DNA of 41,779 bases from a virus, in IMG/VR virus record IMGVR_UViG_3300036761_001014, positions 1 through 41,779 of that record; one strand, 5' to 3'. Position numbers and translations under genes: made by a program. Shown one piece after another: positions 1,200 through 36,697 of the stretch (position 1 is its first letter; each line of letters opens with the position of its first letter). The notes beneath the pieces are model-generated. The model was not told the DNA's origin, did not search any database, and saw only the letters and a program-made list of their open reading frames with translations.

Positions 1200-2162
1200 A
1201 TGGCCGTTATAGTCTTTACGTGTGATACATGCAAGCGGACTCTTGAATTAACTGAAAACAAAACAGGGTTCGAGGTGTTCACTCATTGTATCATTACGCA
1301 AAGTTGTAAGGGGACATTGATTAAGACAGGACGGAAGCTTGGATATCAGACAGGAAAGCCAACACCACTTGCAGTTGGCTTACAAGATTGGAGTCCAAGA
1401 AAGCTTCTGTTCACTCACGAACAAGGACGGCCCGCAACCACATGGAGTATTCGACACAATCTTGGGGTAAACCCAGCTGTGTATGCTTATAAGTTTGTTG
1501 GTGACGATCTTATTGAAATTGAACCATTATCGATTGTGTATATTGATCCAAATTCTGTTGAACTTACATTCAATGATTCTGAAGAAGGATTAGCACAATG
1601 TGTTGCCAGATCTACAGCACCTCCACGATCGGCAATCGTTCCAGTAGCATCACCTGTCGTTGCACAACAAATCTCAACGACAGGTCAACTAACAATTGCA
1701 ACACGAGAACTACTTGCAAACGTTACCATAACAATGCAGTTCCTATCACCCATCGATGCTTCTCCGCTTGTATCGACTAATGTCCCATTTTCAACACTAT
1801 CGTCACTTGCATCACCATGGGGCGATACGGAAATAGTTCTAATTAACGGAAGATCATATCGAGTTAGAACAGCAAATATAGAGTCAATTATTAACTCTCT
1901 TAGTATTGCACAATATGCCCCGTTCTATTTTACTGGAGCATTCTTACCTGGACCTATTCCATATCCACTTGAACAGGTTAATATCCTGCTTGGAAAGTTT
2001 CCATATGCAACAATAGATAAGGATTTTATCCATATTGTGCCCATGTCAACAATCACAACTGCACAAACAGCGATATTGACATATCAAGAAGATGCTGAAT
2101 TATTCGTTCAACCAGAACTAATCAAGCAAATTTACCCACCAATCAGATTTGGTACGTTGTAA
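1200..2162 (+). CDS. zinc-ribbon and virion-like protein
   Basis: A 320-aa protein. The first ~42 residues carry four cysteines (C8, C11, then two more near 30 and 36), spaced like a zinc ribbon. Residues ~65-130 contain W-S-I-R-H-N-L-G-V-N-P and a following run with V-E-L-T-F, a pattern common in phage tail-fibre and other virion proteins. The remainder is beta-rich and Ser/Thr-rich. A structural role is likely but the exact one is unknown. It lies between an Sm-like gene and the gp41 helicase, unlike T4. Its last bases overlap the -35 element of the gp41 promoter. Confidence 0.7.
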   Translation: MAVIVFTCDTCKRTLELTENKTGFEVFTHCIITQSCKGTLIKTGRKLGYQTGKPTPLAVGLQDWSPRKLLFTHEQGRPATTWSIRHNLGVNPAVYAYKFVGDDLIEIEPLSIVYIDPNSVELTFNDSEEGLAQCVARSTAPPRSAIVPVASPVVAQQISTTGQLTIATRELLANVTITMQFLSPIDASPLVSTNVPFSTLSSLASPWGDTEIVLINGRSYRVRTANIESIINSLSIAQYAPFYFTGAFLPGPIPYPLEQVNILLGKFPYATIDKDFIHIVPMSTITTAQTAILTYQEDAELFVQPELIKQIYPPIRFGTL

Positions 2163-2185
2163 CCCAAAAGATTCTATCGTATAAT
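2157..2185 (+). promoter_or_regulatory. sigma70-type promoter for gp41
   Basis: TTGTAA at 2157-2162, a 17-base spacer and a perfect TATAAT at 2180-2185, about 22 bases before the helicase start. The -35 matches four of six consensus bases. The start point would fall near 2192, inside the hairpin described at 2174-2200. Confidence 0.7.
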
Positions 2186-2200
2186 ATCTAATTACGGTAG
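2174..2200 (+). promoter_or_regulatory. hairpin overlapping gp41 promoter and Shine-Dalgarno
   Basis: CTATCGTA (2174-2181) can pair with TACGGTAG (2193-2200), eight pairs with one U-G wobble and an 11-base loop. The right arm runs into the Shine-Dalgarno AGGAG (2199-2203), which sits four bases before ATG 2208. The -10 box lies at the end of the left arm and in the loop. A transcript from the local promoter lacks the left arm; a read-through transcript contains both. Confidence 0.5.
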
Positions 2201-2207
2201 GAGTAAT

Positions 2208-3539
2208 ATGCAGTCAGAAAAGCAAAAACTACTTATAGAGTATCTAATATCATCACCAGATGTTTATGCACTATGTCTTGGTATTGTTAGACCTCAATAC
2301 TTCAATCCTGAATTTCGCAACATTGTCAAGTTTATAGAAAAGTACTATAAAGATTACAGTACAGTTCCATCACTTGAACAGATTTTTGCCGAAACGGATG
2401 TCAAGTTAACAAAGCACATATTAACTCGTGACCAAATTGATTATTGTGCTACAGAGATTGAAACGTTCTGTCGTGATTGTGCAATCGAAGAAGCAATCTT
2501 CGCTTCTCCAGCGTACCTAGAAAAGGGCGATTATGGTAAGATCCGTTCACTAATTTCAGATGCGTTACTTGTATCTTTACATAGAAATGCTGGTGTCGAC
2601 TTTACAGAAGACGCAAGCTATCTAACCAAGACGTTTGAATCGTACAAACCATATCCAACTCTTTGGACAGAGTTTGATGAGATCCTTGAAGGAGGTCTAA
2701 ACAGACAAGAACTTCTAATTGTTGCAGGTAATTCCGGTGCTGGAAAATCTGTTGTTCTAACAAACCTTGCTGTTCGATATGCTGAACAAGGATTGAAGGT
2801 TCTTTACATCACTCTTGAACTTGGTGTACCCGTGGTTTATAAGAGGACAACCTCGATAGCAACAGGAATACCGTCATTCCAAATGATGACAAGAATGACG
2901 GAGGCAATGGAAAAGATACGACAGATGAAGGATTCTCTTCGGCTGGTCATCGAGAAGATGCCTTCGTCAACAAAACCATCACATATTAGGTCGTTTCTTA
3001 AAGAGTTTGAACTTAAACGTGGTTATATTCCTGATGTTTTAATTGTCGACTATCTTGACCTAATGTCGCCAGACGAACACGTCAATGCTGGTGATTTTTT
3101 TACAAAGGACAAACACTCATCAGAAGAACTTCGTGAGATTCTTGTTGACTATGATATGATTGGAATTACAGCTTCACAGTTAAATAGAGAATCTGTTAAG
3201 GCAACGACACATGATCACAGTCACATTGCTGGTGGTATTAGTAAGATTAACACAACAGACGTTCTTGTGACAATTCTTAGAACAGAATCAATGAGAGCAG
3301 CTGGTGAAATAGCATTACAGTTTGGTAAGACAAGAAACAGTGAAGGAACGGGTAGGGTTGTCTATTTGACGTGGTTGAGAACGTTACGAATTGAGAACCG
3401 CAATGACGGTTCTCAAGGATTAAAACTTAACACGAAACCCAATCCATCAAACAAAGACCCAAAAGTAAATAAAACTGATAATACTCCAACAAAGCAAATA
3501 CAACTACTTGATATGTTTGGAGATAAGGAGAAGAAATGA
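2208..3539 (+). CDS. 41: replicative DNA helicase (DnaB-type, T4 gp41)
   Basis: A 443-aa hexameric 5'-3' helicase that unwinds DNA at the replication fork and works with primase; T4 gp41 is 475 aa. Residues 174-181 are the Walker A motif G-N-S-G-A-G-K-S. A Walker B-like I-V-D-Y-L-D-L is near residues 279-285, and the T-A-S-Q-L-N-R segment near 323 matches the family's sensor region (H3). The N-terminal ~130 residues fit the DnaB-like N domain. The C-terminus (~400-443) is Lys/Asn-rich and probably disordered. The start ATG has AGGAG upstream and its own sigma70-type promoter. The stop overlaps the next gene (ATGA). Confidence 0.93.
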   Translation: MQSEKQKLLIEYLISSPDVYALCLGIVRPQYFNPEFRNIVKFIEKYYKDYSTVPSLEQIFAETDVKLTKHILTRDQIDYCATEIETFCRDCAIEEAIFASPAYLEKGDYGKIRSLISDALLVSLHRNAGVDFTEDASYLTKTFESYKPYPTLWTEFDEILEGGLNRQELLIVAGNSGAGKSVVLTNLAVRYAEQGLKVLYITLELGVPVVYKRTTSIATGIPSFQMMTRMTEAMEKIRQMKDSLRLVIEKMPSSTKPSHIRSFLKEFELKRGYIPDVLIVDYLDLMSPDEHVNAGDFFTKDKHSSEELREILVDYDMIGITASQLNRESVKATTHDHSHIAGGISKINTTDVLVTILRTESMRAAGEIALQFGKTRNSEGTGRVVYLTWLRTLRIENRNDGSQGLKLNTKPNPSNKDPKVNKTDNTPTKQIQLLDMFGDKEKK

Positions 3540-4265: not shown

Positions 4266-4279
4266 TCTTGTGCAATAAA

Positions 4280-4334
4280 TCGTTGTGTCACAATAAATAC
4301 TCTAAACACACTGAGGTTTGTTATGACACAACGA
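4280..4334 (+). promoter_or_regulatory. 11-bp inverted repeat hiding a start codon, with a nested promoter
   Basis: TCGTTGTGTCA (4280-4290) is the exact reverse complement of TGACACAACGA (4324-4334). The right arm includes the last two bases of the ATG at 4323-4325 and the following codons. The 33-base interval holds the late promoter AATAAATA and the Shine-Dalgarno GAGG. RNA reading through from upstream could hide the start codon; RNA starting at the late promoter cannot. Confidence 0.75.
4292..4299 (+). promoter_or_regulatory. T4-type late promoter AATAAATA
   Basis: Seven of eight bases match the T4 late consensus TATAAATA, 23 bases before ATG 4323. It lies inside the interval of the 11-bp inverted repeat. 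Confidence 0.6.
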
Positions 4335-5612
4335 AACAAAATTAAAGAGAGTGCTGCTGGTGGTGCTGTAGGTGGTGGTGCTGTCGCTGCTGTTCCTTCT
4401 CGTCTTCTCAAGGGGTCCACTGGAATCCGTCGTCGCCAGAAAGTTGCTGGTATTCCTGTAATCAAATACAAAAACGAGGCAAACGACGTTCTTAACAAAC
4501 TATCGCTTCGTCAAAGTTTCCTTACAGGTCTTCTTAACGAATACGCACAAAATATGTTCTCTCCTGCTGATGTAGAGGGAAAGATGCGGGCTGCTGAGAA
4601 GAAAATGGACTTTCAACAAAATACAATTGCTTTCGGTCTTCAAGATGACCAGGGCAATATCGTAAAAGTCTACGTTCGTCCAGAACAAGCTAATGACTTT
4701 CAACAAGCTGTGTCATCACAATTAGAGGACGCAGTTAACACTTCTGCGGAGATTGCAGAACTTCTGTTTAACCTTCACAACCGGTTTGACATTGTTCACA
4801 CTGAATGGCCAAATATTGCTGAAGATCAAGAAGAGGAACTTCCAGCTGGGGGTGAGGGAGATGTTGAGGGTGGTGATGAAGGAGAGCTACCAGATTTAGA
4901 GGGCATGGACGAAGTTCCACCTGGCGATGAGGGAGCAATGGCTCCAAGTCCCGATGAAGGTGTTAAGTCTGCACTTAATAAAGTGATTGACATGCTCAAG
5001 TCCGATGCAGAAGCACGTAAGGCTGAAGCTGATGCTAAGGCTGCTGAGGCGCGCGCAAAAGAAGCTGAATACACCGCACAGATTGCTACACAGAAAGTTC
5101 GTTCCGAACAAGAAGTTCTCGATGCTGAAGCGTACTACCGTCAGAAGAAGGAAGACCAGAAAGAAGCAAGAAAACTTACAATGTTGGCTAAGTACCGTCA
5201 CGATCAAGCACGTGAAACAGAAGATGGAATGGTTCAGGGAATGTTTGGTGAAGGATATCGCCAGTATAGTGGTGTTGATCGACAACTTGATGGCGATGGT
5301 TGGGAAGAAAATGGCGGAATAGGTCTTTGGTCGAATCCACATTATACAGTTTGGGTTGATACAAATCCAGGTGAGATAATTATTGTATATCCAATTCGTA
5401 ATAACGGCGCTTTTAGGAACTCAGAAGATGATTTTGTTACAATGGTTAGGACTTATGAAGAACTTCAAGATTGGCTGAATGATACTGTCAGTGAGCATAA
5501 CCAACGTCTTCCACAAGGTGTAACAAATGGGACATTCGATTATGCCAAACAAGAAAGTGAATGGCACGAAGAAGACAAAAGACGTCGCGTTGAAAACAAT
5601 TGGGATAGGTAA
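4323..5612 (+). CDS. unknown late protein with Gly/Ala N-terminus and coiled coil
   Basis: A 429-aa protein of unknown function. The N-terminus is basic and then Gly/Ala-rich; I-K-E at residues 7-9 would fit a prohead protease site. Residues ~165-215 are acidic and Gly/Pro-rich. Residues ~225-295 form a long Ala/Glu/Lys helix, probably a coiled coil. Residues 310-429 look globular, with several Trp and Tyr. A late promoter and the 11-bp inverted repeat around its start suggest tightly late expression, so an internal or assembly protein of the virion is possible. GAGG six bases upstream supports this start. The stop overlaps the next ATG (TAATG). Confidence 0.8.
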   Translation: MTQRNKIKESAAGGAVGGGAVAAVPSRLLKGSTGIRRRQKVAGIPVIKYKNEANDVLNKLSLRQSFLTGLLNEYAQNMFSPADVEGKMRAAEKKMDFQQNTIAFGLQDDQGNIVKVYVRPEQANDFQQAVSSQLEDAVNTSAEIAELLFNLHNRFDIVHTEWPNIAEDQEEELPAGGEGDVEGGDEGELPDLEGMDEVPPGDEGAMAPSPDEGVKSALNKVIDMLKSDAEARKAEADAKAAEARAKEAEYTAQIATQKVRSEQEVLDAEAYYRQKKEDQKEARKLTMLAKYRHDQARETEDGMVQGMFGEGYRQYSGVDRQLDGDGWEENGGIGLWSNPHYTVWVDTNPGEIIIVYPIRNNGAFRNSEDDFVTMVRTYEELQDWLNDTVSEHNQRLPQGVTNGTFDYAKQESEWHEEDKRRRVENNWDR

Positions 5613-5947
5613 TGTTCAATAAACTAACATTCAAACAATATCTCGATCTGATGGAGCAAGATCAACTTGGTCAATTGGATACACAACTTGCACAGATAAA
5701 AAATCAACAGGCTATTACTCTTGCACAAAAGGCTCGTGATACAAAGAAATACGATGACAAAAACGTTCAGTTACAACGTACTGTTATGTCACTAACGCAG
5801 AAACAAGCTGCTGAACAAAAGAGAGTCAATGCAGAGCAAGCCAAGAATGACAAAGCAGCAAATCAAAAACCAGGTACACAACCAGCTCAGACAGCTCAAA
5901 CAGGCTTTCAAGGACAACAAGCTCCAGGAAAAGCATCTTTCCCATAA
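5612..5947 (+). CDS. small Gln/Lys/Ala-rich protein with a possible capsid-targeting leader
   Basis: A 111-aa protein. Residues 5-15 (L-T-F-K-Q-Y-L-D-L-M-E) resemble the T4 capsid-targeting sequence, ending in L-M-E, which fits the gp21 cleavage rule. The rest is a hydrophilic helix rich in Gln, Ala and Lys, then a disordered Gln/Pro/Gly tail, a composition like packaged internal proteins. No domain recognised; the internal-protein idea is inference. Start and stop both overlap neighbouring genes in TAATG form. Confidence 0.7.
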   Translation: MFNKLTFKQYLDLMEQDQLGQLDTQLAQIKNQQAITLAQKARDTKKYDDKNVQLQRTVMSLTQKQAAEQKRVNAEQAKNDKAANQKPGTQPAQTAQTGFQGQQAPGKASFP

Positions 5948-6603
5948 TGTTTACACACAAGCCCGTTAGTGTTCCAAACCTACCGGCAACAATGACAAAT
6001 AAACAAAGGTGGTATCTAACCCCTGATGGTCAGTACTATCCTTCAATAACAACCGTTCTTGGTGCAAAAGAAAAACCGTACCTTGTTGAATGGAGGAACT
6101 CTCTTGGTCATCAAAAGGCCGACAAAGAGATGGAACGTGCTGCTAAGCGCGGTACAGCTGTTCACGAAGTTGCTGAACGGTATCTTAACAACGAAGAAAA
6201 TCCAACAAGGGACCACGACAATTCAACTGTCAAACTATTCAATCAATTGAAGATATACATCGACAAGATTGATAATATCTACCTCCAAGAAAAGTCTCTA
6301 TATAGTGACGTTCTTCAAGTGGCTGGGCGAGTCGATTGTATTGCTGATTTTGCTGGTGTCCCATCAATCATTGATTTTAAATCATCAACAAACATGAAGC
6401 ACACTTGGATGGTTGAAGACTATTACTTACAGGAAACATTCTACTGTCTTGCATTTGCAGAACGTACCCAGATTGAAATACCACAAATTGTCACTCTGAT
6501 TACAGTCGAAAAGGGACTACCGTTGGTGTTTAAGAAGTCAATTCAGCCATATATTGTTCCTTTGACATTACGGATCAAAGAGTTCTATCAAAAGTTCGTA
6601 TAA
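5947..6603 (+). CDS. PD-(D/E)XK exonuclease, MGME1/RecB-like
   Basis: A 218-aa nuclease of the Cas4/RecB/MGME1 group that cuts single-stranded DNA ends; in phages it is linked to recombination or genome processing. Visible motifs: Y-P-S-I-T-T-V-L near residue 27, R-G-T-A-V-H-E near 68-74, G-R-V-D near 129-132, I-D-F-K-S-S near 142-147, and Y-Y-L-Q near 160. The metal ligands would be the His, the Asp of G-R-V-D and the Asp of I-D-F-K, with Lys as catalytic base. It is full length for the compact phage forms. The TAA stop overlaps the late promoter of the next gene. Confidence 0.85.
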   Translation: MFTHKPVSVPNLPATMTNKQRWYLTPDGQYYPSITTVLGAKEKPYLVEWRNSLGHQKADKEMERAAKRGTAVHEVAERYLNNEENPTRDHDNSTVKLFNQLKIYIDKIDNIYLQEKSLYSDVLQVAGRVDCIADFAGVPSIIDFKSSTNMKHTWMVEDYYLQETFYCLAFAERTQIEIPQIVTLITVEKGLPLVFKKSIQPYIVPLTLRIKEFYQKFV

Positions 6604-6606: not shown

Positions 6607-6627
6607 ACAATAAACAGGACATTCGAT

Positions 6628-10199: not shown

Positions 10200-13100
10200 A
10201 TGGCCGGAAGATTAATTCCAACAGTGTCTAGTGCTGAAACGTGGCGTCAGGTATATGATGCATTTCAGAACATTAATTTCACATCATACGACTACAACAC
10301 AATCAAACAAAGTTTGATTGACTACATTAGAACATATTTCCCTGAATCGTTCAATGATTTCATTGAGTCAAGTGAGCTGATTGCAATCGTTGAAACATTT
10401 GCATATGTTGGTGAACTTGTTGCATATAGACAGGATCTTAACGCTCGTGAAAACTTTCTTCCAGTAGCACAAAGAAAGCAAAGTGTCCTACGACTTGCAA
10501 AGTTCATTTCGTACACAGCAGCAAGAAACATTCCCGCTCGTGGTCTCGTAAAGATTACGTCTATTAGAACATCTGAAAGACTTACGGACTCGAAAGGTGT
10601 TAACCTAACTAATAAAAACATTGTTTGGAACGATCCAACAAATCCAGACTGGAAAGAACAATTCATTCTTGTTCTCAATCGTGCACTACAGAATGATTTC
10701 GGTACTGTAACACCAAGCGAGCGTGTTCAGGTACAAGATATTCTATTCGAGCTGTATACATTTGACAACCAATCGCTTCCAAATGGTATAATTCGTTATA
10801 GTGTTAGTGTGTCAGATCAGACATATACATTCGAACTTGTTCCTGCAGCACTTAATAGTGATGGACCATATGAAAGACGTCCAGAGAATAGTTCAGCAAT
10901 GACACTACTGTATGCATCTGATGGTCTCGGTGATGGTTCCAATAGTACTGGTTTCATGTTTGTTACAAAACAAGGATCTTTGCAAAAACTGACAGAAACG
11001 TTTGATGGTGTAACACCAAACCAAACATTCCAAATCAATTCTCAGAACATTAACGAAACAGATATTTGGCTGAACAATATTAATACAATAACAGGAAGCA
11101 TTGTAGATGATGGTTCTTCTTCCACAGGTCGTTCTGGTGCTTGGGTTCAAGTTGATACGGCAAATTCACAAAACATTATCTTTAACACAAATACAGCAAG
11201 AAACAAGTATGAAGTTGAAACCCTTGAGAATGATGACGTTCGATTGATCTTTGGTGATGGCGAATTCGCAAATGTCCCATCGGGAACGTTTGATATTTGG
11301 TTCCGCATCTCAGCAAACAATGACGTTATTGTTCCACAAAGTTCAATTCAAGGAACAAATGGTTCGTTAACATATCAAGACGTTGCAGGGAACAATCAAA
11401 CACTATCGTTCAAGTTCTCACTAATTTCTACCATTCAGAACGCATCGCCATCAGAAGATATTGAACACATTCGTAGAACAGCTCGCGCTGTATACTATAC
11501 ACAAGATCGTATGGTTAATGGACGTGACTATAATACGTTCATGCTTCAAGATCCAACGATTCTCAAACTCCAGGCAATCAACAGAACATTTGCTGGTGAA
11601 TCTAAATGGATGAATTTCACCGATCCAAGTGAAGCATACGACAATGTTAAATTGTTTGGAAACGACCTTGCATTATATTATGGAACAAATGAATTTGTTC
11701 TTCCTGATGTTGGAGCTGAAGTTCTTGGAACGGCAATTCTAGACAATTATCTTGAACCAATTCTTTCTAATCCTAATTTCTATATGGCAAGGGTTTTAAG
11801 GGGTGATACAAATCCTGGTCGTCGATTATTCACAACAGCAGAACGAAACGAGATCCCATATGCCCTTGGTGACGTTACACCGACACATCCAATTCCTCTA
11901 CCAAGTGTTGGATTTCCTGTCTACTTGGTGCACGATACGGCTACTGATACGTGGATTGCTTACAATCAGGATGACTATACTAATGTATGGCTTGTCCTTC
12001 ATCCAGACCAACCATACTTTATCAAGATCGTCAATGCTAATCCAACTGTAACACCATGGAGCATTTCATATAGCACATCTACTCTAACTGCTGATAGTCA
12101 GACAACGAGATTCTGGTTTGCACAAGATGGAGACGTTGTAGACTTTGATTCGCAAACGCCATCTAATGATGTTGTAACCGTTCTTAACGCAAATTCAGAC
12201 AACGATCGTGCAAGAACACTTGTTGACAATATTGATCTTGTTGTTCTTGGTCATGATGAGTATCTAAATAGCGGACTACCAGATATTCACAGACTCGATG
12301 TTGTTCCAACAGATAGTAACCGTGACGGTTTACCAGATAACATTAGACTGTCAGAACTTCTCAATCCATCAATTGACATCACAGACAGTACTTCTCTGTC
12401 AGCATTCTATGTTGTCAATTTTGGCAATACAGCATCTTATGATGGGACAACAGGTCTATTAGCTCCAACTAACGGAACTAGTTTGTGGAATGTCGGTAGT
12501 AATAAACTACCAGATACTCCAACAGATGTTGCTAATAATCAAGTAGCATACAGACTACTACTTGAGGTTGATCTAAGTTCAACCGAAGATAACTCACCAA
12601 TTAATAGCTTAAACCAACCACTACAGCGGTTCTACGTTGATAATGACATTACGCCTTACATATCAAAGTATCGATTGTTTAGTGTTACAGGATCAACGGG
12701 AACAATATATACAATCGTTGCTGTTATTACTGGCGCTGGTGGTACGTGGACAATTTCTGGAAATTCCGCACTCCTGCTGTCGAATTTTATAGGTCATCCG
12801 TTTACTGTAACAGGTAATACTGGCACAGGCAATGGTACCTACACAATTGCATCAGCAACAGATGTGGGACCAAACACAAATATCGTTGTCAACGAAACTA
12901 TCCCTATTGGTGCAACTGCTGATGGCTCCCTTGTCGTAGATAATAATGGAGTGTATACAATTGATTCGTTCAGATTTGTTCAAGGAACATCTGGAACACA
13001 AATTGTTAACGTTGGCGGAAGTCGTGTATCTTCTGATATTACAGGACTTACGAATGACGTTGGTGCAACGCAAGGATCACAAACAATAACATTCTCTGTT

Positions 13101-16100
13101 GCTAAGACAGGCAGCGATCCAACCGCTCTTGTACCAACTACAACGTACGTTGCTACAGTAACTGTAGATGGTGCAGTTATAATTCCAATATCGATCATTG
13201 GTTCAACAGCTACAACATTTTCAACACTATTGTCGCAGTTGAGTAGTCAACTTGGTGGTTTTGCTACAGTACAACAACTGAATGGCAATATTGTAATAAC
13301 CAGTGATACATTTGGTGCGACATCAAATGTTGCTGTTAGTGCTGGTACGTTATTCGTTGCTCCACTTGCAAGTGTTAATGCACCTGGATCTTGGATTACA
13401 ATACCTGGTACTGATACGATAACAACACCATATTATGCAACAATAACGATTGATACAGTTAATATAATTCCTGTCTCCGTTGCTGGTGGAATTGCTCAGA
13501 TATATGGTGGACTACTTGACAGTCTTAACTCACAGATTGGAGCATTTGGAACCGCTTCAATTGTTAATGGAAACATTCAAATATCAAGCAACAGCGTTGG
13601 GACTTCATCAACAGTATCTATCGTTGATGCAGGAACATCTGGATATCAGGAAGTCGACTTTACGGTTGCCAAAACTCTTTTAGATTCTACAGGACTTATT
13701 GCAACAGCAGGGTATCAAGAAGTATCTGTTTTTGGTTTACCACTAGGTACGGTTGTTCCTGCAATTCCTGCAGACACATACGACTTTGATATTACAATCG
13801 ATGGTGGACCACTTCAACAAGAATCAATTGTACTTACAGGCGTAGAAGATTACAATACAATCGCTGCTCTTATGGATGCAGAAGTAACACCAGCTGCAAC
13901 TGTAACATTTGTTGGTGGCGAGTTTGTTTTTACCAGTACTACACTGGGTACAACGTCGTCAATTCTTGTAGCTGCAGGCACGTTTGGTTCAACTGGTGGT
14001 GACATTTTTGCTGCTATTGCAGTTGCAGCAGGTGGTGCTAATACATTCAATGCTGCCGTTCCAGGTACAGATACAACATATACGGCTACAATCAATATTG
14101 ACGGTACAAACTATCCAATTTCTGTTGATGCAACAAATGCTCAAACATATACACAACTATTAGCAGAACTTAATACTGACTTAGCTGGTGCTGCTACAGC
14201 TTTGCTTATAGCAGGTAATATAAGAGTAACATCAGCGTCGATAGGACAATCATCAACAGTTCTTATAACACCAGGTACATTATTTGCCGATCCAGACTTA
14301 ACAGATTTTGATGCAATTCTGACTGCTGTTCCCGGACTAAACTCGTTGTTCAGTTTACTTGCTACTTTTAATAGTTTTGGTACACCAGTAGTAGGAACAA
14401 ACGCAATTGGTACAGAAATCATTACATTTGAACTAATTCCTAGCGCAGTAGCAGATGGACAAATTAACTACCGTCGTGCAGCTATAACGAGACAGATTAC
14501 GTTCACTGGTGACCAGATTCAAACATATGGATCCTTGGTTGATGTAATCAACCAAGGATTTGGTGATATAGCAAAAGCAGAACTTGTTGGTGGAAACATT
14601 CAGCTAAAGAGTTTAACAACTGGCGATCGATCAAAGGTTAATGTTATCAACATAGACACAATTGATAGTATCATCACAGCAATCGCGGCCGCTCTTTTAA
14701 CAGTACCAAATGTTATCTATAGTGGCGACATCGAAGGTGATGATTTTGAAGTTAATATGTCCGTTGTTATAGAAGATACTTACGTGATAACTGCCGTCAC
14801 GACTGGTTTAGGGGGAACGTTCGTTGTCCCCAACGATCGCACGTCAGCATTTACACCCGGTTCAACGTTTGATGTTACAGGATCGACAGGAAATGATGGT
14901 ACGTACACTGTTGCATCATCTGTGTTTGGACTTGGTAACACAACAATCACCATAACGGGTACCGTTGTTAGTGCTATCGTGGATGGTATTATTGAAAGGT
15001 CAGCATCATTACCAAGTGTGTTCCGTATGAGTCAAGGGTTAACGTGGACACAATTTATTAATACAGTTATTGCTGATCTTCCCGTATTTCCACAGGTTAA
15101 TATCACAATCGTTGGTGGCAATCTAAAATTTGAGACACTACTCGCTTCCGATACATCAACACTTACCGTAACGTTCGGTGCTCCAGTAAACTGGGATGTT
15201 AACTATCTCGGTCATATTTTGGCAAATGACGTTACACAAATTGGTAGCGGCTCATCAGTAACGCTAGCGACACCACTAATAGTTCCTATCCCATTAGTTT
15301 ACATTGAAGGAAGAGGGGATGTAACAATTATAGGTAACGGTACACTTCTATTCGTTAGTGGAATTCATTTCAACGTTTCACATGTACTCAACCAAATGTA
15401 CGATACTGTTGAAATAACTGATCTACAGGACAGTGACGAGTTGACTATTATAGTTAATGACTATGTGTATTTTTATCAAGACGATCCAAATGTACAACCC
15501 GTACCAATTGAGCCCACAGACGATAACATCCAGGCATTCATTAACGACACATCAAGCACAAACACAAACACTGGATCGAACTACTCAAGACAACTTGGTC
15601 GTAGTGGACTAAACTTTATGTGGAGACATCACACAAGATTGAAGAACCTTATCGATCCTGCAGCAACAAACATTATCGATATGTTCATCATTCAGAGAGA
15701 CTACTACCTCAATATCAAAGATTGGCTTGCAGGAGAAATCGTTATTAAACCAGCTGCTCCAACACCATATGATCTTAGAAGTTCGTATGCATACCTACTT
15801 GATAATAGGATGCTATCAGACACTGTCGTCCTTCAATCAGGACAATTTAAATATTTGTTTGGTCCTTATGCTGATCAACAGTTACAAGCAACATTTAAGG
15901 TGATTCGTTCACAGTTCTCATCATTGACAGACAATCAGATCAAAGCAACGATACAGACAACTGTAAACAATTATTTTGATATAAGCCAGTGGGAGTTTGG
16001 TGAAACATTCTTCTTTACAGAACTTGCAGCGGCAATTCATACAGCACTGCCGTCAGAGATTGATTCTGTTGTTCTTGTACCAACATATCCATCAAACACG

Positions 16101-16217: not shown

Positions 16218-16218
16218 C

Positions 16219-16291
16219 CCTCTTGATTAACCGTTTGTTATCAACCAATTTTCTTGGTAACATGCAGTTTATAAATAACTTCAACAAGAGG
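16219..16291 (+). promoter_or_regulatory. inverted repeat hiding a Shine-Dalgarno, with nested late promoter
   Basis: CCTCTTG (16219-16225), just after the gp6 stop, is the exact complement of CAAGAGG (16285-16291), which is the Shine-Dalgarno region of the next gene. The late promoter TATAAATA lies between the arms. A smaller hairpin (ACCAA/TTGGT with a TTTTC loop, ~16244-16258) sits in the same interval and could shorten the distance. Read-through RNA from gp6 would mask the ribosome site. Confidence 0.6.
16270..16277 (+). promoter_or_regulatory. T4-type late promoter TATAAATA
   Basis: Exact match to the late consensus, 28 bases before ATG 16306, in an 88-base intergenic region. Confidence 0.75.
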
Positions 16292-16305
16292 AGTCCATAG
16301 AATCT

Positions 16306-22300: not shown

Positions 22301-25008
22301 CATTAACATTCTACCGATCGCCAGGTGATACACGTCGACCAAATATTGGTGGATACTTCCTACTTGATAACCAATTCATAGAGAACATTGAAGTTGGTGT
22401 CGATAATATGCAAAAGTACTATGATACATATGTTGTTAATGAAACAGCAAACTTTGTTGGGTTCGCCCGCGACACAGTTGGTTATGAAGATCCTGATTAT
22501 CTGGACGAACTATCATCTGTAACCGAGAAGTCAAAGTTCTTATTCTGGAAGGGACTAATTCAAAATAAAGGAACCGTAACAGCGGTTAAGGCTTTCGTTA
22601 ACTCTAGACTTTTCGTTGATGCTTTTGTTGATGAATTTTGGGCTTATAAGATCGCAGAATATGGCGACTCGAGAGAGAAGATCTATCCAGAACTGAAAGT
22701 ATTCACAGGCGACGTTCGTAAAAATGAAATGAGACTTCATTTCACAAGCACTGCCGATCCCGTTGAAGCGTCATTCATAGATGTTAAACTAACAGATAAA
22801 GACAGATGGTATAAACAACCAGAACAAAGGAAGGCAATTCTCGAAACTAGTGTCAATGGTAATCTATACTTTGACGCAAAGGTGACAGAAAGAATTGTCC
22901 GTCCACTTCCTATTATGGCAAATAGCTTCAGATATATCCAGCTTGATAATCCCGCTGATGGAATTAGGTTTACATTTACCAATGGTACTGATTACTACGA
23001 AGAAACAGCACCATCAGCAATTTGGACAATCCCATTTACATACATTCCAGGTGCTAACAATATTGAAGTACGAAATGACAACACGTTACTAAAGACTGGT
23101 ATTGATTATCTCGAACTAAGCCCAAACACAATTCAATTACTTGTACCATTAGTTGGGGTATTCTCTGTACAAAAGAGGACTGGTATTCTTGTCGAAGACA
23201 TCCACTATGAAATGAGGAACTCAAAACTTATTAAGGTTCTTTTAACTAATCTACAATGGAATGGACTAACAAACTACACAATCTATCTAATCAATGTGTA
23301 CAAGAATGCAATCAATCCAATAAAATTGATTGACTACAAATCCCAAACAACACTGGCGAAAATTTCTGTCTGGGATCCAGGTCGCGGATACCATTATGCA
23401 AATGCTTATGTCAATGTCGATCTTTCAAGTGATACAAATCCAGCATTGTATACAAACAATCTCGACCAGCAACATCCTACATACAATCCACCTTATCTGT
23501 GGAATAGTCTACAAGTTGGTACAACTTGGTGGGATACATCAAATCTTGATTATGTACCATATTGGGATCACAACATCTTCACCTTGAACGAAAGATCATT
23601 CCATTGGGGCAGACTTGCTGATTGGAGTACGATTGACCTTTATGAATGGACACAGTCGAACGTTCCTCCAACACAATGGGCAAGTGCTGTTAGTGGTGAT
23701 GAAAACGATACAACATTATTATCAGAAGAAAAACGTACTGGTGAAGCATTCTCACGTTTGTACGTTCGTTATTTGAATCAAGAAACAAACGTGTGGGGAC
23801 CATGGGTACAGCTTGATAGTGCTCCATACCAAGAATATGTTATGGAACTTTATGGTGTTACACAAACACTAACAATTACGGACCTTGATGTTGTTGATGG
23901 CAATGTTGTTGACGTTTACGTTAATGGATTCTTTGTTGAACAAGCAACAGTTGAAGCAGTGATTAATCTTACGCCATTGCCAGATGATATAACAAAGGTG
24001 GTTAACATCACAACACCACTTGATGGAAACGATATTGTTCGTATTATTAATCCACTACCTGAATTTACAGATGCACAACTTGGTGAACAGGAACTAAATA
24101 CATCTACTTCTGTGCAGTATACAAAGGACTATCCTTACAGTACCGTCACAACAGTCGACAATCAAGGAAATACTACCTCTGTAACGTATTTCTTCTGGGT
24201 TCGCAACAAGACAACCCTTCCAGAAGGTAACACAATACCAATTAATCAAGTTGCTATACAGCTGAAAACACCACCACAGCCATATATGTTCCAACAGAAC
24301 TTTATTTACAACACTGGTGTTCCACCATTTTCAAACACTCTAAACTACACTGATAGTTATCTTGATACGCTTCCTGGTTACTACTCACAGGTAATCATTA
24401 ACGGTGTTGCTGGAATGATTAACGAAGACGATCGTTATAAAATTCAGTTTACAAAAGACCTTTCGTTGCGTCAAACGCTTGAGAACTCAATCAGTAAGAA
24501 AAACAAGCACGAAGAATGGCAAATGATTAGAGCAAAACAACCATTCCTAATCGGACGTGATTTGTGGGACAAAATTACAGAATCTCTTATCGGATACAAG
24601 CTCAACGATCCACTCGTTCCTGTTCCATCAATTGAACGTCAATTGTACGATGAAACATACAATACTCGAACACGTTGGGGTCTAGGAGATGAGCAAGCTT
24701 TTGTAGATCCTAATCTTGCTGTAAATACGGTCATAAAAGAGATTGAGGATGAAAAGTATAATGTGTTCCCTGTTGATAGGGAGGTGTTTTTTGGAACATA
24801 CTCATTTGATACACCTGAGAATATTATCGAGGCAATGAATGCTGTGTACACAACATTCCCAACTGATACAACGAATCGCATTTTCTTCTCGGTCCTTATG
24901 GATGCAATGACACTGAGAACAGACTATAGTGGAATCTTCAAAACTTCATATCTATCACTTTACGGAATTAGATTGTTTGAAACACCACAGAACGCTTTGG
25001 ACGATTAA
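16306..25008 (+). CDS. giant baseplate protein at the gp7 position
   Basis: A 2900-aa protein, by far the largest in the window. Its place after gp25-gp6 matches T4 gp7 (1032 aa), which joins gp6, gp8 and gp10 in the wedge. The region with K-Y-R-Q-V-E-Q-I-K-Q-Y and Y-P-L-F-D-L-F near residues 768-790 resembles large virion proteins of T4-like environmental phages; this is from memory of the family. Two type A modules are visible (~245-325 and ~545-615), with a diverged one between. Much of the rest is Asn/Thr/Trp/Tyr-rich beta structure. Shine-Dalgarno AAGAGGAG precedes the start. Assignment as gp7 rests mainly on position. The next gene starts two bases after the stop. Confidence 0.8.
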   Translation: MADNSDYTKPHTNIFKLLPDVFKTLINKHLSHNTFNRYLTKNEMEFAYGSVGKRNTSFLEVDTNGDYIYHDTRIEEPTVIRQAWQLQPILYSKVATIDHAMSWEDVENELENTGVDIDRSPKWGNALQFNWVPPIDADKLVNFRNYYWYDPTGSIPPDYITIKNLCRVYEAQYNEYYAYATERLADPLITPIEEAQILATLSSIEAQRDCTCNGGSLGWDIGQWDDNPENWWFDVGNVGPPISNTYTINGVIVGVGGTWTVSGNHASEFVIGEAFVVQGNSGSGDGTYTIVSATNNGPNTDVVVNETIPALATGDGSLIVDGTLNVNGAAIPGGGWTTATPPPGPRGASFPQDTFFWFNLETLEMKIWSTALTDWIDYITPPATGLYPWDFITGCQAQTDPWSAANKWYHRKDVPDINHATPAAAPIIEYHPRLQLNEWVYLNQIWLYRANVISDWEQSDTQPTLSEMTERYQILFVDIGAGTIIVPGNKTALFVPGFEFSIENEFFNVTHWNTVGSFFNGINTVVQTTNPPLTISGIVAPIIGGTITEIYITDDRTLDLTIGDKITIEGSSGNDGLYTVNGFLYNIIFNRTEIQTIETLPFLPVDGTFIHTDYVAPFVTSSKGDSYFGFVNQWVLQEIEDPVPVNHQVPATTTDTHEFIVSILTPVFDFGVTHYLANTNAIRVYVDDIRQYGNYVEGNWDGFIFTPAISTTLYANAIAFLDPSSVVSTVVRVELGVAADLDIGYDGIDHNGIPVRTTTDVPFIPEYKNLAKYRQVEQIKQYTNQYPLFDLFNIDGTTAYLANEIFRYVEDQNLGINTTIGKRIVTFDGGRDYLFEQLLLTEDGGMYCFKDGDSIEVDNLEGLQTIWRKGTDNEQYVPRYINQYRLEDGDTFTDWNNQTQTALVPAGKGAWEVPNQLFYNADHENRQQIRFTQLFTHFKSIMDLQVAPDPFNFPVEAPQRLLSTYNYGVGGTIREYNDSYDTFLSSAYSTTTTPQGIFTFAATQYDNNLTTLSEIYLQNLTSYLTTTQDEFLIDLETQVSNATIDTFEQNKQNDIVFGDTTAYNATTNEGIKGWIATSPILNLTFKTEPAWLVDPEIGLNKILHHDGHYDTYTIDDFVERQLIVNILNITGGTSTPTIPPYTAVSPGLYWQNSVTKVLYRFIAVSVGIGVPALSYPEGTYWFNTATNLLMFRDPLNIILGWSPVTGTVGDVDAAWRVINLEDILNNIILEAERRLYQIAPDTTTLKFDFQTQMFTDLADQTTFQQYMKEAYYVYVRLNALDPFATDFNNSDAFTWNYRAANTLFVVYPTAQTNLDKPWGARWEQINLTLFGTPYPHLEPWKIQRYTGKPTWWDLLYKDITNTRRWNPLMWSNLNLGIIPVGELLPDGVTVSTGGIGEVEMYTHFSVNIYATTIDGYAPDDLIPPFYSNDPTLTQQALVRSITYLNINEIDDIYEFGDVGPTEQQWQDSTQFYADLLGTAYRMQPVRFLHYTWGTDFTIVAGLQIDMRTSKVFSHLDTIFHGDLLPDNTTYFSDGINQWYINFIRYGNYDVNTSDFKPLWTQWHPQLTYLTDAMVDVKSLDITNKFFDITKNDYQIILKKSPGVENFNVESFQVTTDSFTTYNIRHNSRIPRLDGTDWTFRVTTPSPLNRSIDYYGVKKYSVSVDQTTDTFTHVGILPWSDIDLTDKNLTWFTGKAIFIESTESFPAPILSTTPYYLIKVTDSSFKLATSQVNANLGIYIDITTVGSGTIFVSDIKKSFVAVGGFTTQVWKEYHVDTRTIIHVIPPFLVTGIQTLLDIIYGYIAFEQDLGFVFSDSSITEVDISSNRPQSWQVQIEGLLNAIYTGLGEATVAILDQAFGAPTTPSYDVNPFKNNLWFRPPYGIVSNIISGPFSDIRTTPSVYTQISNPIAPTSIFALREDKLTHIYSPQPVGSNYEGRDGEDAVLTRDERVGVAVGSADYMGGARLFIDTYEHIILFNDYTTEENLIYDPFLGLNTAKFTLTFYRSPGDTRRPNIGGYFLLDNQFIENIEVGVDNMQKYYDTYVVNETANFVGFARDTVGYEDPDYLDELSSVTEKSKFLFWKGLIQNKGTVTAVKAFVNSRLFVDAFVDEFWAYKIAEYGDSREKIYPELKVFTGDVRKNEMRLHFTSTADPVEASFIDVKLTDKDRWYKQPEQRKAILETSVNGNLYFDAKVTERIVRPLPIMANSFRYIQLDNPADGIRFTFTNGTDYYEETAPSAIWTIPFTYIPGANNIEVRNDNTLLKTGIDYLELSPNTIQLLVPLVGVFSVQKRTGILVEDIHYEMRNSKLIKVLLTNLQWNGLTNYTIYLINVYKNAINPIKLIDYKSQTTLAKISVWDPGRGYHYANAYVNVDLSSDTNPALYTNNLDQQHPTYNPPYLWNSLQVGTTWWDTSNLDYVPYWDHNIFTLNERSFHWGRLADWSTIDLYEWTQSNVPPTQWASAVSGDENDTTLLSEEKRTGEAFSRLYVRYLNQETNVWGPWVQLDSAPYQEYVMELYGVTQTLTITDLDVVDGNVVDVYVNGFFVEQATVEAVINLTPLPDDITKVVNITTPLDGNDIVRIINPLPEFTDAQLGEQELNTSTSVQYTKDYPYSTVTTVDNQGNTTSVTYFFWVRNKTTLPEGNTIPINQVAIQLKTPPQPYMFQQNFIYNTGVPPFSNTLNYTDSYLDTLPGYYSQVIINGVAGMINEDDRYKIQFTKDLSLRQTLENSISKKNKHEEWQMIRAKQPFLIGRDLWDKITESLIGYKLNDPLVPVPSIERQLYDETYNTRTRWGLGDEQAFVDPNLAVNTVIKEIEDEKYNVFPVDREVFFGTYSFDTPENIIEAMNAVYTTFPTDTTNRIFFSVLMDAMTLRTDYSGIFKTSYLSLYGIRLFETPQNALDD
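17035..17278 (+). repeat. type A beta module, copy 3 (gp7-position protein)
   Basis: Encodes G-G-T-W-T-V-S-G-N-H, then G-N-S-G-S-G-D-G-T-Y-T-I, V-V-V-N-E-T-I-P and D-G-S-L. It is the closest relative of copy 1 in gp6, showing exchange or duplication between different baseplate genes. Confidence 0.8.
17941..18147 (+). repeat. type A beta module, diverged copy 4
   Basis: Encodes a shortened version with I-E-G-S-S-G-N-D-G-L-Y-T-V and a closing P-V-D-G-T-F strand. An even more diverged copy may precede it at ~17725-17940. Confidence 0.6.
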
Positions 25009-29148: not shown

Positions 29149-29193
29149 TAACACAACTATCAAGCAAAGTTTTATTGTATGATAGTTGTGTTA
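29149..29193. terminator. 14-bp perfect inverted repeat between convergent genes
   Basis: TAACACAACTATCA (29149-29162) and TGATAGTTGTGTTA (29180-29193) with a 17-base loop, between the rightward block and the leftward gene ending at 29212. It could end transcription from both sides. There is no clear T run after either arm, so it is not a textbook intrinsic terminator and may instead block RNA decay. Confidence 0.6.
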
Positions 29194-29211
29194 TCTGGGA
29201 AAATTCTACGA

Positions 29212-29592
29212 CTAAAGACCCATACGTCCTTGGGAAACTGGCATATCACTACCAAATGCACTAATTCTTTTCGTCAACTGTTGGAAGTAAGAAAGAGCAT
29301 TCATGCCATTTCCAAGAGTTGTTTGGCTCATAAGATCCCACAACTCATAAAGTTGTGCGTTCCTGTTACCAACAATTTTGAGAAGACGTTGTTTATCGAT
29401 ATTATCAAGTGCTGTTACTGGGAAGTACAGTAAGTCACCATTATCGAAACGCTTCATTATAGCACATTCGACAAGTGTTCCACTAAATTCAACCCAATAG
29501 ATATGTGGGAAGCTACCTGGACGGACCTGAAGTGGTTTACGTGCCGCTAGTTTTTGCTGTTTTGCTTCAGCAGAAGTTGTTTGTTCAGCCAT
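29212..29592 (-). CDS. unknown 126-aa protein
   Basis: A soluble-looking protein with a basic, Ala/Gln-rich N-terminus (1-20), a beta-rich middle containing two aromatic-rich strands, and a helical C-terminus. No family recognised. AAGGAGA lies before the start, and a weak late-promoter-like AGTAAATA is 25 bases upstream. It is the promoter-distal gene of the leftward group with the PAAR protein, so a late or virion role is possible. Confidence 0.65.
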   Translation of the reverse strand: MAEQTTSAEAKQQKLAARKPLQVRPGSFPHIYWVEFSGTLVECAIMKRFDNGDLLYFPVTALDNIDKQRLLKIVGNRNAQLYELWDLMSQTTLGNGMNALSYFQQLTKRISAFGSDMPVSQGRMGL

Positions 29593-29624: not shown

Positions 29625-29647
29625 AGGTTAAAAAAACGAGATACCTT

Positions 29648-31314: not shown

Positions 31315-31340
31315 GTTTTTCGTCCAATTTTTGTTGTTGT

Positions 31341-31354: not shown

Positions 31355-31377
31355 ACATCACCAAAAGGATGAAAACA

Positions 31378-32650: not shown

Positions 32651-32671
32651 TTTTACTCTTTTTGTTCTTGT

Positions 32672-32992: not shown

Positions 32993-33089
32993 ATTATTTC
33001 TCCGATCTTGTATATATTGGGTTAACTTAGTGATATTCCAAAGATTTCACCAAGTTTTCGTTCAGTTGACGTGTCTAGTGGATCATATC

Positions 33090-33320: not shown

Positions 33321-33333
33321 AGTAGTCTCCTTA

Positions 33334-34044: not shown

Positions 34045-34046
34045 AA

Positions 34047-36635
34047 TCAAAATCCAAATATATCGTCAAACAAGACTATTTGTCTTGTTGGTACTTCTTT
34101 ACGTATTGCCTTAAACACAAGTTTCAAATTATCATCAACAAGCCGTTCGGCCTGTTTATAACGATCGACGACTGGTTGGTACTCATCGAGAAACCATTGT
34201 GGTATCACGTCAATATCGGTTGGTAGCGCAATCGAATGGAACCGACCGTAATCCCTCTTCAAATAGAACACTTTAATTTTCATTCCTGAAATAATTGGTG
34301 GACTACTATGGTCATCATATTCATCCAAACATAGATTATAATGAATTGCAGCGGCTATATGACCTGGAATTCTTGTTTTTGGATCATCTTTAAAGTTTCG
34401 GGTATACTCCTCTACTTTGTTACACCCTTTTGGCAGACCGATATCAAACACCTCCATTACATCAATTGCCTTATCTCGAAAGTCAATCACATGTCGTTCA
34501 ACATCATTCCATTGACAACCCTTTAGAATCATCTCAATTGTTGCTGAAAGAAAGTTCTGCACGGACTTTGGTGTTGTCGTCTTTTTCATCTCAAGACCCA
34601 TCGTCTTGAGTTTGTCTGTTGGATTACCATCTAGATCGACAACGTGAAGAACATATCGTTTCTTTTCAACAAAGATCCCACGATCGGCAACGACTTCCCG
34701 ACCGGCCTTGATAATATCATCAAAACCAGAACTACATAAAAACGCGTCCTGCATAAACGTATTGAACGATTGATTAACCTGCTTCGCAACCTCATCAGCA
34801 ACCATCACTGCTTGTTGTTTATCATCTGCGTGTGTCTTAAAATAGACTGAATCTGTGTCTCCATAGATTATAGAATCTGATGGGAACTTACCATGTGTAT
34901 CAGCGAGATCATCTTCTGATAGAGGAAGGTCAATGTTATAGTTTCCATCAAGTAGTTCTGCAACCTTACGAATTTGATGTCTTAGAATCATTCGTCCAGT
35001 AGCAGTCGTAGACTCACCAAATCTCAAATCGAAGAACCTAAAATAAAAGTTTGTTAGTGCACCATAACATGAGTTCAATTTAATTTTGTACACATACTGA
35101 AGACGATCATAGTATCCTGATTGTTCATGATCTCCTGCTTCATATGCCTGTGCTTTAAGTTTCTGATAGTCTTTTCTTTGTTTGTACCAAGATGCAAGAA
35201 TCATTGGAACAATACCAGGTTTGTTTTGATCAAATACAGTCCCGTATCCAGATACAGCCCACTTCTTGCTCTTTAGAAACTCTCTCCATTCTTTTGCTGT
35301 TCTCTCTTCCTCAATACCATTGTCGTACTTGAGAACAAGTGTTGTGTTGCTATTATCAACCAATTCGTCCCAATCTCTAAATGTTCCATCAAATTGTCCT
35401 ATTACAGTTTCGGGACTAAGGTTTAAACTACGAATCGACGATGGATACAGAGAGTTGATGTCTATGCTACCGATCCATTCATGAAGACCCATCTGTGGAA
35501 CCAGAACATACGCACCTTGAATTTGTCTGTCCTCAGTAGATTGTTGATAGTCAGGAACTCGTAGACCACCAAGATCATAATGACAATAGTTAACAATCGC
35601 CATGTCAAACAATTGCAACGTCCCAAAAACGTTTCTAAACTGCGTAAGTGAAATATGACACATCATATTTGCTAGGTTGACGTATCCTAACTTTTCTTCC
35701 AAACCTTTCAGAATTTCCGTATCACGAACGTTGTATCGAACAAAATGATTAAAGTTGTTTTTGTATAATTGAGCAAGCGTACCACTAAACGATAATTTTG
35801 GCAGATGTGGAAGAACCTCTTCTGCAATCGACTCCAACTTATATGACGGGCGTTGTGTCATTTCATACTTCTTAAATAGGTCAAGATAGTCAAGATGCAC
35901 TCGACCTGATAGTTCTGCAGTTGTTTGTATTCTACCAAATAGCTCAACATCCCTATATCTTGGAACCTCTGCCTGAGCAAATGACATCCTACGAAGATGG
36001 GTTCGTCCAAGTTCGGATTCAATTCGTTTACATAGGTACGGAATGTCGAAGAAGCCACTATTCCAACCACTGAGAATATCAGTGTCTTCAATTTCGGCTA
36101 AAAAGTACAATAACAAGTCAAACTCGTTACGACATATGACAACCTCTGAAAGGTCTCTTAATGAGGGATCAAACGTCTTTTCATCCCAACCTGGAGGAGG
36201 AACTACATAAACAACAGAACGGTCCTGCCATACATGATAGATAGACACAGCACAAACGGGAGCATAGGGGTTTGATGGACTCGGAAAACCAATCTTTTCG
36301 TTATAGTCGACCTCAATATCAAACAGCGTGATATTCAGTTTTGGAGTTGGTCTATTGTAATACAGTTCGGAAAGAATTTTGACTTCAGGTGGGATATCAG
36401 ACTCGTACAATCGCATACGTCTTGACTGATATTCAGTTCTAGACTTGACAAAATCTTCGTATGTATCAAAATCATACCTTTTTAGAGGAGTACCAAAAAT
36501 ACTTCGTTCAGTACCTTCAAGATCTTCGACATAAAAGTAAAATGGAGCTTTATGGCTTACAGCACGACGTCCGGATTCATCACGTTCCCAGACAATGACA
36601 CTGTTGCCTTTTCTTATTGAAGAGATGTAGCTCAT
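34047..36635 (-). CDS. 43: family B DNA polymerase (T4 gp43)
   Basis: An 862-aa replicative polymerase with proofreading; T4 gp43 is 898 aa. Exonuclease motifs: D106-I-E108-V-D (Exo I), N-S-G-F-F-D-I-P-Y (Exo II, ~195) and Y-x-x-R-D-T-E (Exo III, ~305). Polymerase motifs: S-L-Y-P-S-S-I-R near 390 (motif A), K-L-N-S-C-Y-G near 520 (motif B) and Y591-G-D-T-D-S596 (motif C). The C-terminal tail (I-V-L-F-D-D-I-F-G-F) fits a clamp-binding end. The start ATG has AGGAG 13 bases upstream, partly within a large palindrome centred on its promoter. The stop nearly touches the clamp gene. Confidence 0.97.
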   Translation of the reverse strand: MSYISSIRKGNSVIVWERDESGRRAVSHKAPFYFYVEDLEGTERSIFGTPLKRYDFDTYEDFVKSRTEYQSRRMRLYESDIPPEVKILSELYYNRPTPKLNITLFDIEVDYNEKIGFPSPSNPYAPVCAVSIYHVWQDRSVVYVVPPPGWDEKTFDPSLRDLSEVVICRNEFDLLLYFLAEIEDTDILSGWNSGFFDIPYLCKRIESELGRTHLRRMSFAQAEVPRYRDVELFGRIQTTAELSGRVHLDYLDLFKKYEMTQRPSYKLESIAEEVLPHLPKLSFSGTLAQLYKNNFNHFVRYNVRDTEILKGLEEKLGYVNLANMMCHISLTQFRNVFGTLQLFDMAIVNYCHYDLGGLRVPDYQQSTEDRQIQGAYVLVPQMGLHEWIGSIDINSLYPSSIRSLNLSPETVIGQFDGTFRDWDELVDNSNTTLVLKYDNGIEEERTAKEWREFLKSKKWAVSGYGTVFDQNKPGIVPMILASWYKQRKDYQKLKAQAYEAGDHEQSGYYDRLQYVYKIKLNSCYGALTNFYFRFFDLRFGESTTATGRMILRHQIRKVAELLDGNYNIDLPLSEDDLADTHGKFPSDSIIYGDTDSVYFKTHADDKQQAVMVADEVAKQVNQSFNTFMQDAFLCSSGFDDIIKAGREVVADRGIFVEKKRYVLHVVDLDGNPTDKLKTMGLEMKKTTTPKSVQNFLSATIEMILKGCQWNDVERHVIDFRDKAIDVMEVFDIGLPKGCNKVEEYTRNFKDDPKTRIPGHIAAAIHYNLCLDEYDDHSSPPIISGMKIKVFYLKRDYGRFHSIALPTDIDVIPQWFLDEYQPVVDRYKQAERLVDDNLKLVFKAIRKEVPTRQIVLFDDIFGF

Positions 36636-36650
36636 TATTCTTATTGTACT

Positions 36651-36690
36651 CCTAATAGCGATCGTCTATTATAAGACGACCACTATTAGG
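36651..36690 (-). promoter_or_regulatory. 40-bp two-step palindrome centred on the gp43 -10 box
   Basis: On the minus strand, CCTAATAG (36690-36683), four bases, CGTCT (36678-36674), TATAAT (36673-36668), AGACG (36667-36663), four bases, CTATTAGG (36658-36651). Outer 8-bp and inner 5-bp arms are perfect and the centre is the -10 hexamer. The downstream outer arm contains the AGG of the Shine-Dalgarno AGGAG (36653-36649). It can act as a repressor operator, as an RNA hairpin in read-through transcripts, or both. Confidence 0.75.
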
Positions 36691-36697
36691 GTGTCAA
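36668..36697 (-). promoter_or_regulatory. consensus sigma70 promoter for gp43
   Basis: Perfect TTGACA (36697-36692) and perfect TATAAT (36673-36668) with an 18-base spacer, reading toward the polymerase gene. It is the strongest host-type promoter in the window and implies early expression by unmodified host RNA polymerase. Confidence 0.88.

Follow-up and report, generated by a model that had tools for sequence, protein, structure and literature searches.

Promoters placed inside ribosome-site hairpins at four genes of a T4-type phage fragment, with the same layout in excess in related jumbo phages and in T4

Four genes of the IMG/VR record IMGVR_UViG_3300036761_001014, analysed here in full (41,779 bases; "the window"), have their own promoter between two complementary arms, or overlapping the upstream one, with the second arm over the Shine-Dalgarno sequence (SD) or the start codon. 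They encode a gp41-type helicase, a gp43-type DNA polymerase, a protein of 429 amino acids (aa) and a virion protein of 2900 aa. Hairpins of this anatomy were found in excess at both late-type and sigma70-type promoters of related jumbo phages; the excess depends on the presence of a promoter and on an upstream arm located outside the gene's own RNA, and the layout is conserved while arm sequences change. A widespread, cis-acting gating of translation by the promoter that made the RNA is, in our judgement, a likely explanation of the four sites. How packed co-directional phage genes of different timing avoid production from a neighbour's RNA is an open practical question.

The window is a fragment of a large T4-type myovirus. 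Among named phages it is closest to the jumbo phages Xanthomonas XacN1 and Stenotrophomonas RAS14/CM1, with a gp43 identity of about 43%; a nucleotide search of phage records with the window found no near relative. Giant baseplate and virion genes were assigned through PHROGs to window positions 10200-25008. Four of the five copies of the motif YATAAATA in the window lie just 5' of genes (0.2 expected), and the motif is likewise concentrated 5' of genes in T4 and in each of the 16 relatives analysed. Because of this concentration just upstream of genes, a T4-type late sigma system is probably in use in this phage group.

The original prediction, made from the letters of the window, had described at these four genes a local promoter between two arms, the second touching the ribosome site or start codon. 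The sites were read directly and then folded (RNAfold) in two forms, the read-through RNA and the RNA beginning at the predicted local start; outside T4, all transcription starts were predicted from consensus motifs. Reading and folding confirmed the layout at all four: the 3' side of a stable helix contains the SD and/or the start codon, and the transcription start predicted from the motif lies 3' of the left arm. The features are as follows.

2208-3539, plus strand: gp41-type DnaB-like replicative helicase gene (PHROG 19, E=1.8e-66)
2157-2185, plus strand: predicted sigma70-type promoter of gp41, by consensus match (TTGTAA 2157-2162, spacer of 17 nucleotides (nt), TATAAT 2180-2185; predicted +1 at about 2192)
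2172-2181, plus strand: gp41 hairpin left arm TTCTATCGTA, from RNAfold, lying in the spacer of the promoter and the beginning of the -10
2193-2202, plus strand: gp41 hairpin right arm TACGGTAGGA, from folding, over the SD TAGGAG (2198-2203)
4323-5612, plus strand: 429-aa gene, function unassigned, adjoining gp41 in several relatives too
4281-4290, plus strand: 429-aa hairpin left arm CGTTGTGTCA, part of a perfect inverted repeat of 10 base pairs (bp)
4292-4299, plus strand: predicted T4-type late promoter AATAAATA between the 429-aa arms, from sequence (predicted +1 at about 4305)
4324-4333, plus strand: 429-aa hairpin right arm TGACACAACG, read and folded, overlapping the ATG
16306-25008, plus strand: 2900-aa virion structural gene in the gp7 position (PHROG 10938, E=9.5e-69)
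16219-16225, plus strand: 2900-aa hairpin left arm CCTCTTG, directly 3' of the stop codon of the 2005-aa baseplate gene
16270-16277, plus strand: predicted T4-type late promoter TATAAATA of the 2900-aa gene, from sequence (predicted +1 at about 16283)
16285-16291, plus strand: 2900-aa hairpin right arm CAAGAGG, on the SD
34047-36635, minus strand: gp43-type DNA polymerase gene, start at 36635 (PHROG 262, E=7e-175)
36668-36697, minus strand: predicted sigma70-type promoter of gp43, from sequence (TTGACA 36697-36692, 18-nt spacer, TATAAT 36673-36668; predicted +1 at about 36661)
36674-36690, minus strand: gp43 hairpin left arm CCTAATAGTGGTCGTCT, from RNAfold, filling the promoter spacer
36651-36667, minus strand: gp43 hairpin right arm AGACGATCGCTATTAGG, read and folded, ending in the SD AGGAG (36653-36649)

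The gp43 site is the most striking of the four. Its stem has 17 bp, wobble pairs included, and its loop is exactly the -10 hexamer TATAAT; the fold energy by RNAfold is -41 kcal/mol for the read-through RNA versus -5 for the gene's own RNA, and opening the SD costs 10.9 versus 2.1 kcal/mol. At the 429-aa gene the ten perfect pairs are joined by an inner helix (AATAAATACTC/GAGGTTTGTT), and the ribosome site costs 16.2 kcal/mol to open in read-through RNA versus 5.3 in own RNA. The corresponding costs are 12.9 versus 6.5 kcal/mol at the 2900-aa gene and 11.0 versus 4.8 kcal/mol at gp41, where the best stem covers the SD with 10 pairs, two of them G-U. The pairing TTGTAA/TTACGG had also been considered for the gp41 arms and was ruled out by folding, which gives TTCTATCGTA/TACGGTAGGA. 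When the upstream 75 nt were dinucleotide-shuffled 600 times, P was 0.0017 for gp43, 0.005 for the 429-aa gene, 0.05-0.07 for the 2900-aa gene and 0.11 for gp41, so the first two sites are individually beyond chance. The layout was absent at five other promoter-bearing starts in the window (6628, 9808, 26884, 7710 and 37760).

An RNA initiated upstream would carry both arms, fold and close the ribosome site, whereas an RNA from the local promoter would begin after the first arm, could not form the fold and would be translated; translation would thus be gated by which promoter made the RNA. At genes with a late promoter (429-aa and 2900-aa), upstream transcripts would be kept from yielding product, as at the T4 lysozyme gene. 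Genes with a sigma70-type promoter (gp41 and gp43, and regB and alc of T4) would show the reverse: late read-through RNA would not go on yielding the early protein after the early promoter has been switched off. We infer that the predicted starts are used, that folding blocks the ribosome in these phages and that the layout has a role in timing.

All four window hairpins have co-directional genes upstream. A late-type motif at about 297 precedes the genes leading into gp41, gp41 is followed by the late 429-aa gene, and virion genes (41627-37836) lead into gp43; by these orders the hairpins stand at meeting points of promoter classes. The 2900-aa gene, a late gene after a late gene, is the exception, and there the effect of the hairpin could be one of dosage.

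The polymerase hairpin calls to mind the translational operator of T4 and RB69 gp43, also a leader hairpin at the ribosome site of that gene, through which T4 gp43 represses its own translation (PMC3014915). That operator is a short hairpin with a UAAC or CAAC loop in the gene's own mRNA; the window gp43 has a UAUAAU loop, a 17-bp stem, a promoter inside and a left arm 5' of the predicted start. If this promoter is used, the gene's own RNA would lack the left arm and offer the protein no hairpin to bind. The layout is also absent in gp43 relatives, including G002 (55% identity), which has neither the local promoter nor the hairpin, and self-repression by gp43 through an RNA operator appears quite unlikely. 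In a further gp43 relative, L024, a palindrome (TTGACAGG..CCTGTC, at about 5940-6000) lies within the -35/-10 spacer, short of the ribosome site, and may be an operator.

The layout was examined beyond the window in 17 jumbo-phage sequences of about 3.1 Mb in all (the window, G002, 13 further IMG/VR contigs, XacN1 and RAS14), with T4 as a control. Genes with an ATAAATA or sigma70-type promoter a short distance upstream were scanned, and the cost of opening positions -16 to +4 around the start codon was compared between the gene's own RNA and that RNA with 60 nt of upstream sequence. For the null, each gene received sequence taken from upstream of other promoters of its class in its genome, with composition, SD and promoter motif retained. 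Read-through raised the opening cost by at least 8 kcal/mol at 65 of 520 late promoters versus 14 expected (P~4e-24) and at 42 of 552 sigma70-type promoters versus 9 expected (P~4e-16); at least 10 kcal was reached at 29 of the latter versus 2.6. The same permutation scan gave 7 of 23 late sites (1.7 expected) and 7 of 39 sigma70 sites (1.2 expected) in T4. A genome-wide comparison with shuffled sequence had been named beforehand as the check on the original prediction; it was strongly positive in the relatives and in T4, and controls of position, promoter and strand came out as predicted.

Chance or base composition, with purine-rich ribosome sites pairing with pyrimidine-rich upstream sequence, might account for a single site: neither gp41 nor the 2900-aa gene is significant alone, and one repeat of 7 to 8 bp near a start is unremarkable. 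For the whole class such an explanation is already contradicted and must be called extremely improbable, given a 3- to 10-fold excess over within-genome swaps that keep composition, SD and promoter motif, flat or weak far-upstream and coding controls, homologues that keep the layout, and the covariation at regB described below. The excess of sites gaining at least 6 kcal was +12.2% at late and +8.3% at sigma70 promoters, +2.2% at intergenic regions without a promoter and +0.1% where the upstream sequence was coding. A duplex test at -12 kcal found 74 late sites versus 31 expected (P~1e-11), 67 versus 46 in the far-upstream control and 41 versus 42 in the coding control.

An upstream gene's intrinsic terminator or attenuator could abut the next ribosome site by accident, and some of the strong matches in the first scan were short-loop hairpins with T-runs (G010 +315170, RAS14 +219731). 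The first sigma70 scan was inflated by them and was rerun with loop and T-run filters. The excess persists after T-run sites are removed, and an ungapped-stem test restricted to loops of at least 12 nt, which excludes terminators, still gave 49 late sites versus 21. No T-run follows the right arm at any of the four window hairpins, which thus lack this mark of an intrinsic terminator. As an explanation of the layout, terminators are highly improbable.

Where the arms lie is informative for promoter gating. The signal arises mainly with a left window of -45 to 0 relative to the transcription start site and a right window of -22 to +12 relative to the start codon. At short-leader sites the stretch before the start site gave 64 hits versus 24.9 (P=2e-11), whereas at long-leader sites, where -47 to -22 now falls inside the own RNA, no clear excess was seen (12 versus 8.1); the arms are therefore located where RNA from the gene's own promoter would lose them. 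Late-site hairpins were commoner behind a co-directional gene (22.9% versus 14.3%, P=0.02) and most frequent where the next promoter upstream was of sigma70 type (29% versus 19%, and 12% with none); at sigma70 sites, the class of the upstream promoter gave only a trend (17.5% versus 14.0%, P=0.42). The original prediction had proposed a general means of ensuring that only RNA from a gene's own promoter is translated. The excess and its controls support the generality of the layout; we strongly infer the remaining step, that translation would come only from own-promoter RNA.

The proposal that the layout is shared rather than any arm sequence was borne out among homologues. Across 934 homologous promoter-bearing pairs, both members had the hairpin in 74, versus 29.6 in within-genome label shuffles (P=0.0002), with differing arms. 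Families that keep it include the clamp loader (6 phages), the PHROG 639 regulator (6), the 2900-aa gene (5), gp41 (3) and the 429-aa gene (2), and further the tail sheath and GIY-YIG endonucleases. The gp41 homologues in G009 and G010 have the same layout with different arms, and the 429-aa homologue in G009 has its late promoter within the hairpin GCCGTCC/GGACGGC. Nine of 17 homologues of the 2900-aa gene show the layout with differing arm sequences, such as GACAGTCCATC/GATGGACTGTC (L144), CCCTCTCAT/ATGAGAGGG (L145) and TTCTCCA/TGGAGAA (L140). The closest strains were uninformative on the arms, as their sequences are identical or nearly so. Swapping arms between homologous hairpins gave 10.5 versus 3.7 kcal/mol, a comparison biased by the choice of pairs for strong matched folding, and the conservation count was relied on instead. 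Three homologous sigma70 leaders (G007 +259566, G022 +11376 and G006 +40526) have arms that appear to differ by paired base changes, with a matched loss of one base pair, and would make a good covariation set.

The inverted repeats might instead be DNA operators for promoter-bound repressors. The palindromes do overlap promoters, that of gp43 is nearly symmetric about the -10, the L024 spacer palindrome stops short of the ribosome site, and counts of G-U versus A-C mismatches (87:55 versus 131:95 permuted) do not clearly separate selection on RNA from selection on DNA. Arms nevertheless vary among genes and homologues, the position of the right arm is set by the SD or start codon, with no constant spacing to the promoter, loop length ranges from 6 to more than 50 nt, and folding is better for the sense than for the antisense strand (-14.5 versus -13.4, P=0.002, but P=0.057 against the permuted baseline). 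We consider DNA operators quite unlikely.

Promoters between arms are known from some late genes of T4. On upstream RNA the SD or AUG of T4 e (lysozyme), soc, 49 and I-TevI lies in a helix, and a late promoter between the arms gives RNA without the 5' arm (PMC3014915), like the late sites here. The late promoters AATAAATA and TATAAATA stand between arms and make the 429-aa and 2900-aa genes candidate members of this family; gp41 and gp43 have sigma70-type hexamers instead and would work like the family, and we do not count them as members. The leaders of I-TevII, I-TevIII, segB and Aeh1 mobE share the layout in which the long RNA is off and the late RNA on (PMC2988022), as do jumbo-phage GIY-YIG genes. 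The T4 cases are a handful of genes, all late, whereas in the distantly related jumbo phages the layout occurs at tens of genes, sigma70-type promoters are included, and virion, tail sheath, homing-endonuclease and Rz-like spanin genes are among them. Unlike the homing-endonuclease genes, gp41, gp43, the clamp loader, regB and alc are not late. Among the strongest late promoter hairpins is that of the Rz-like spanin gene of XacN1 (118455, minus strand; AACCCGTCTAT..ATAGACGGGTTT), which parallels T4 lysozyme.

Blind to annotation, the scan recovered T4 e, 49, I-TevI, I-TevII, segB and 26, most of which are established cases (PMC3014915, PMC2988022). The same scan also picked the T4 early genes regB, alc, nrdC.8, modB, motB.2 and 30.8. 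The early promoters of regB and alc (GTTTAC...TGTGnTATAAT) carry the left arm between -35 and -10, with the SD as right arm, like gp41 and gp43 of the window; the regB features (a spacer that contains the left arm, a -10 located in the loop or an arm, an SD that forms the right arm) all recur at gp43 and gp41. In T4-like regB genes of IMG/VR phages, an SD stem with the -10 in its loop was found in 13 of 17 distinct leaders with differing arm bases; 24 cells were changed on both sides versus 8.6 in shuffles, and the covariation score was 0.366 versus 0.120, with arms anchored on the SD, which favours pairing. RNAalifold found nothing on the regB leaders, the MAFFT alignment losing the register of the arms. 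The alc stem is kept in the 60%-identical relatives L359 and L365 and not in others.

The host-type promoter version had been thought new compared with T4, a claim these genes overturn. regB has been described as having a typical early promoter and a GGAG SD (PMC3014915), the spacer region of T4 early promoters has been discussed in terms of promoter strength (PMC2988021), and a review lists sequestration-controlled genes as all late, on early or middle transcripts (PMC2988022). A search of the open-access literature found no description of an early-promoter hairpin in read-through RNA, an absence that is no proof. The host-type version is real, then, and T4 carries it too, apparently unreported in the open literature searched.

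A fold over the SD might instead serve mRNA decay, for example by keeping RegB-like cleavage away from the SD or by protecting the 5' part of read-through RNA. GGAG is protected from RegB by RNA structure (PMC3014915), and regB itself has the layout; yet the T4 late cases e and I-TevI were shown to act on translation (PMC3014915), and the layout is also found at late genes, whose mRNAs RegB spares. A decay function in place of translational gating is very unlikely.

Several points weigh against promoter-gated translation as a general account. In the window, neither gp41 nor the 2900-aa gene reaches significance by itself, though homologues support both; the gp43 SD lies 13 nt from the ATG, above the usual distance; the gp43 homologues examined do not keep the layout, and only two of seven 429-aa homologues have it. 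In the scan, the stricter ungapped-stem test shrinks the sigma70 excess to 33 versus 21 (extreme tail 7 versus 1.5), and late sites of divergent genes are also in some excess (26 versus 14). Some promoters in the sigma70 set are false, a simple caller supplied the gene starts, sampling noise enters the permuted null through its 10 draws per site, the contigs are related and incompletely independent, and folding was purely thermodynamic.

With these points weighed, we lean towards a wider proposal: that large T4-type phages use a general, sequence-independent own-promoter code at about one tenth of promoter-bearing genes, in both time directions (late genes silent on early RNA; helicase, clamp loader, polymerase, regB and alc silent on later RNA), the early half of which has gone unnoticed in T4. 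If the layout is general, transcript levels would not suffice to read gene timing, and much of the RNA counted by RNA-seq of infected cells would never be translated. A promoter inside a ribosome-site hairpin would also be a design rule for insulating packed synthetic genes, and the T4 early promoters gain a new reading that can be tested directly.

Related leader structures were observed as well. Divergent late promoters of T4 share one palindromic region at 77337 (gene 4)/77385 (gene 53) and at 116428 (26)/116479 (51), and these regions cover both ribosome sites, on opposite strands. Terminator-like hairpins with T-runs stand directly against the start codon, with little or no SD, at G010 +315170 and -95736, RAS14 +219731 and XacN1 -152474, a recurrent leader type distinct from the promoter-in-hairpin layout. 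In the window, the plus-strand block ends with a small open reading frame (ORF; 29179-29433) whose ATG is flanked by a perfect 11-bp inverted repeat (AACACAACTAT/ATAGTTGTGTT, 29150-29160 and 29182-29192); no promoter could be recognised between its arms, and it has no T-run. On the minus strand at 37760-37830, a mini-ORF (MSIQRGEL) with its own SD lies 5' of the PHROG 639 regulator gene; it ends in TAATG, overlapping the regulator start, and resembles a translational-coupling leader.

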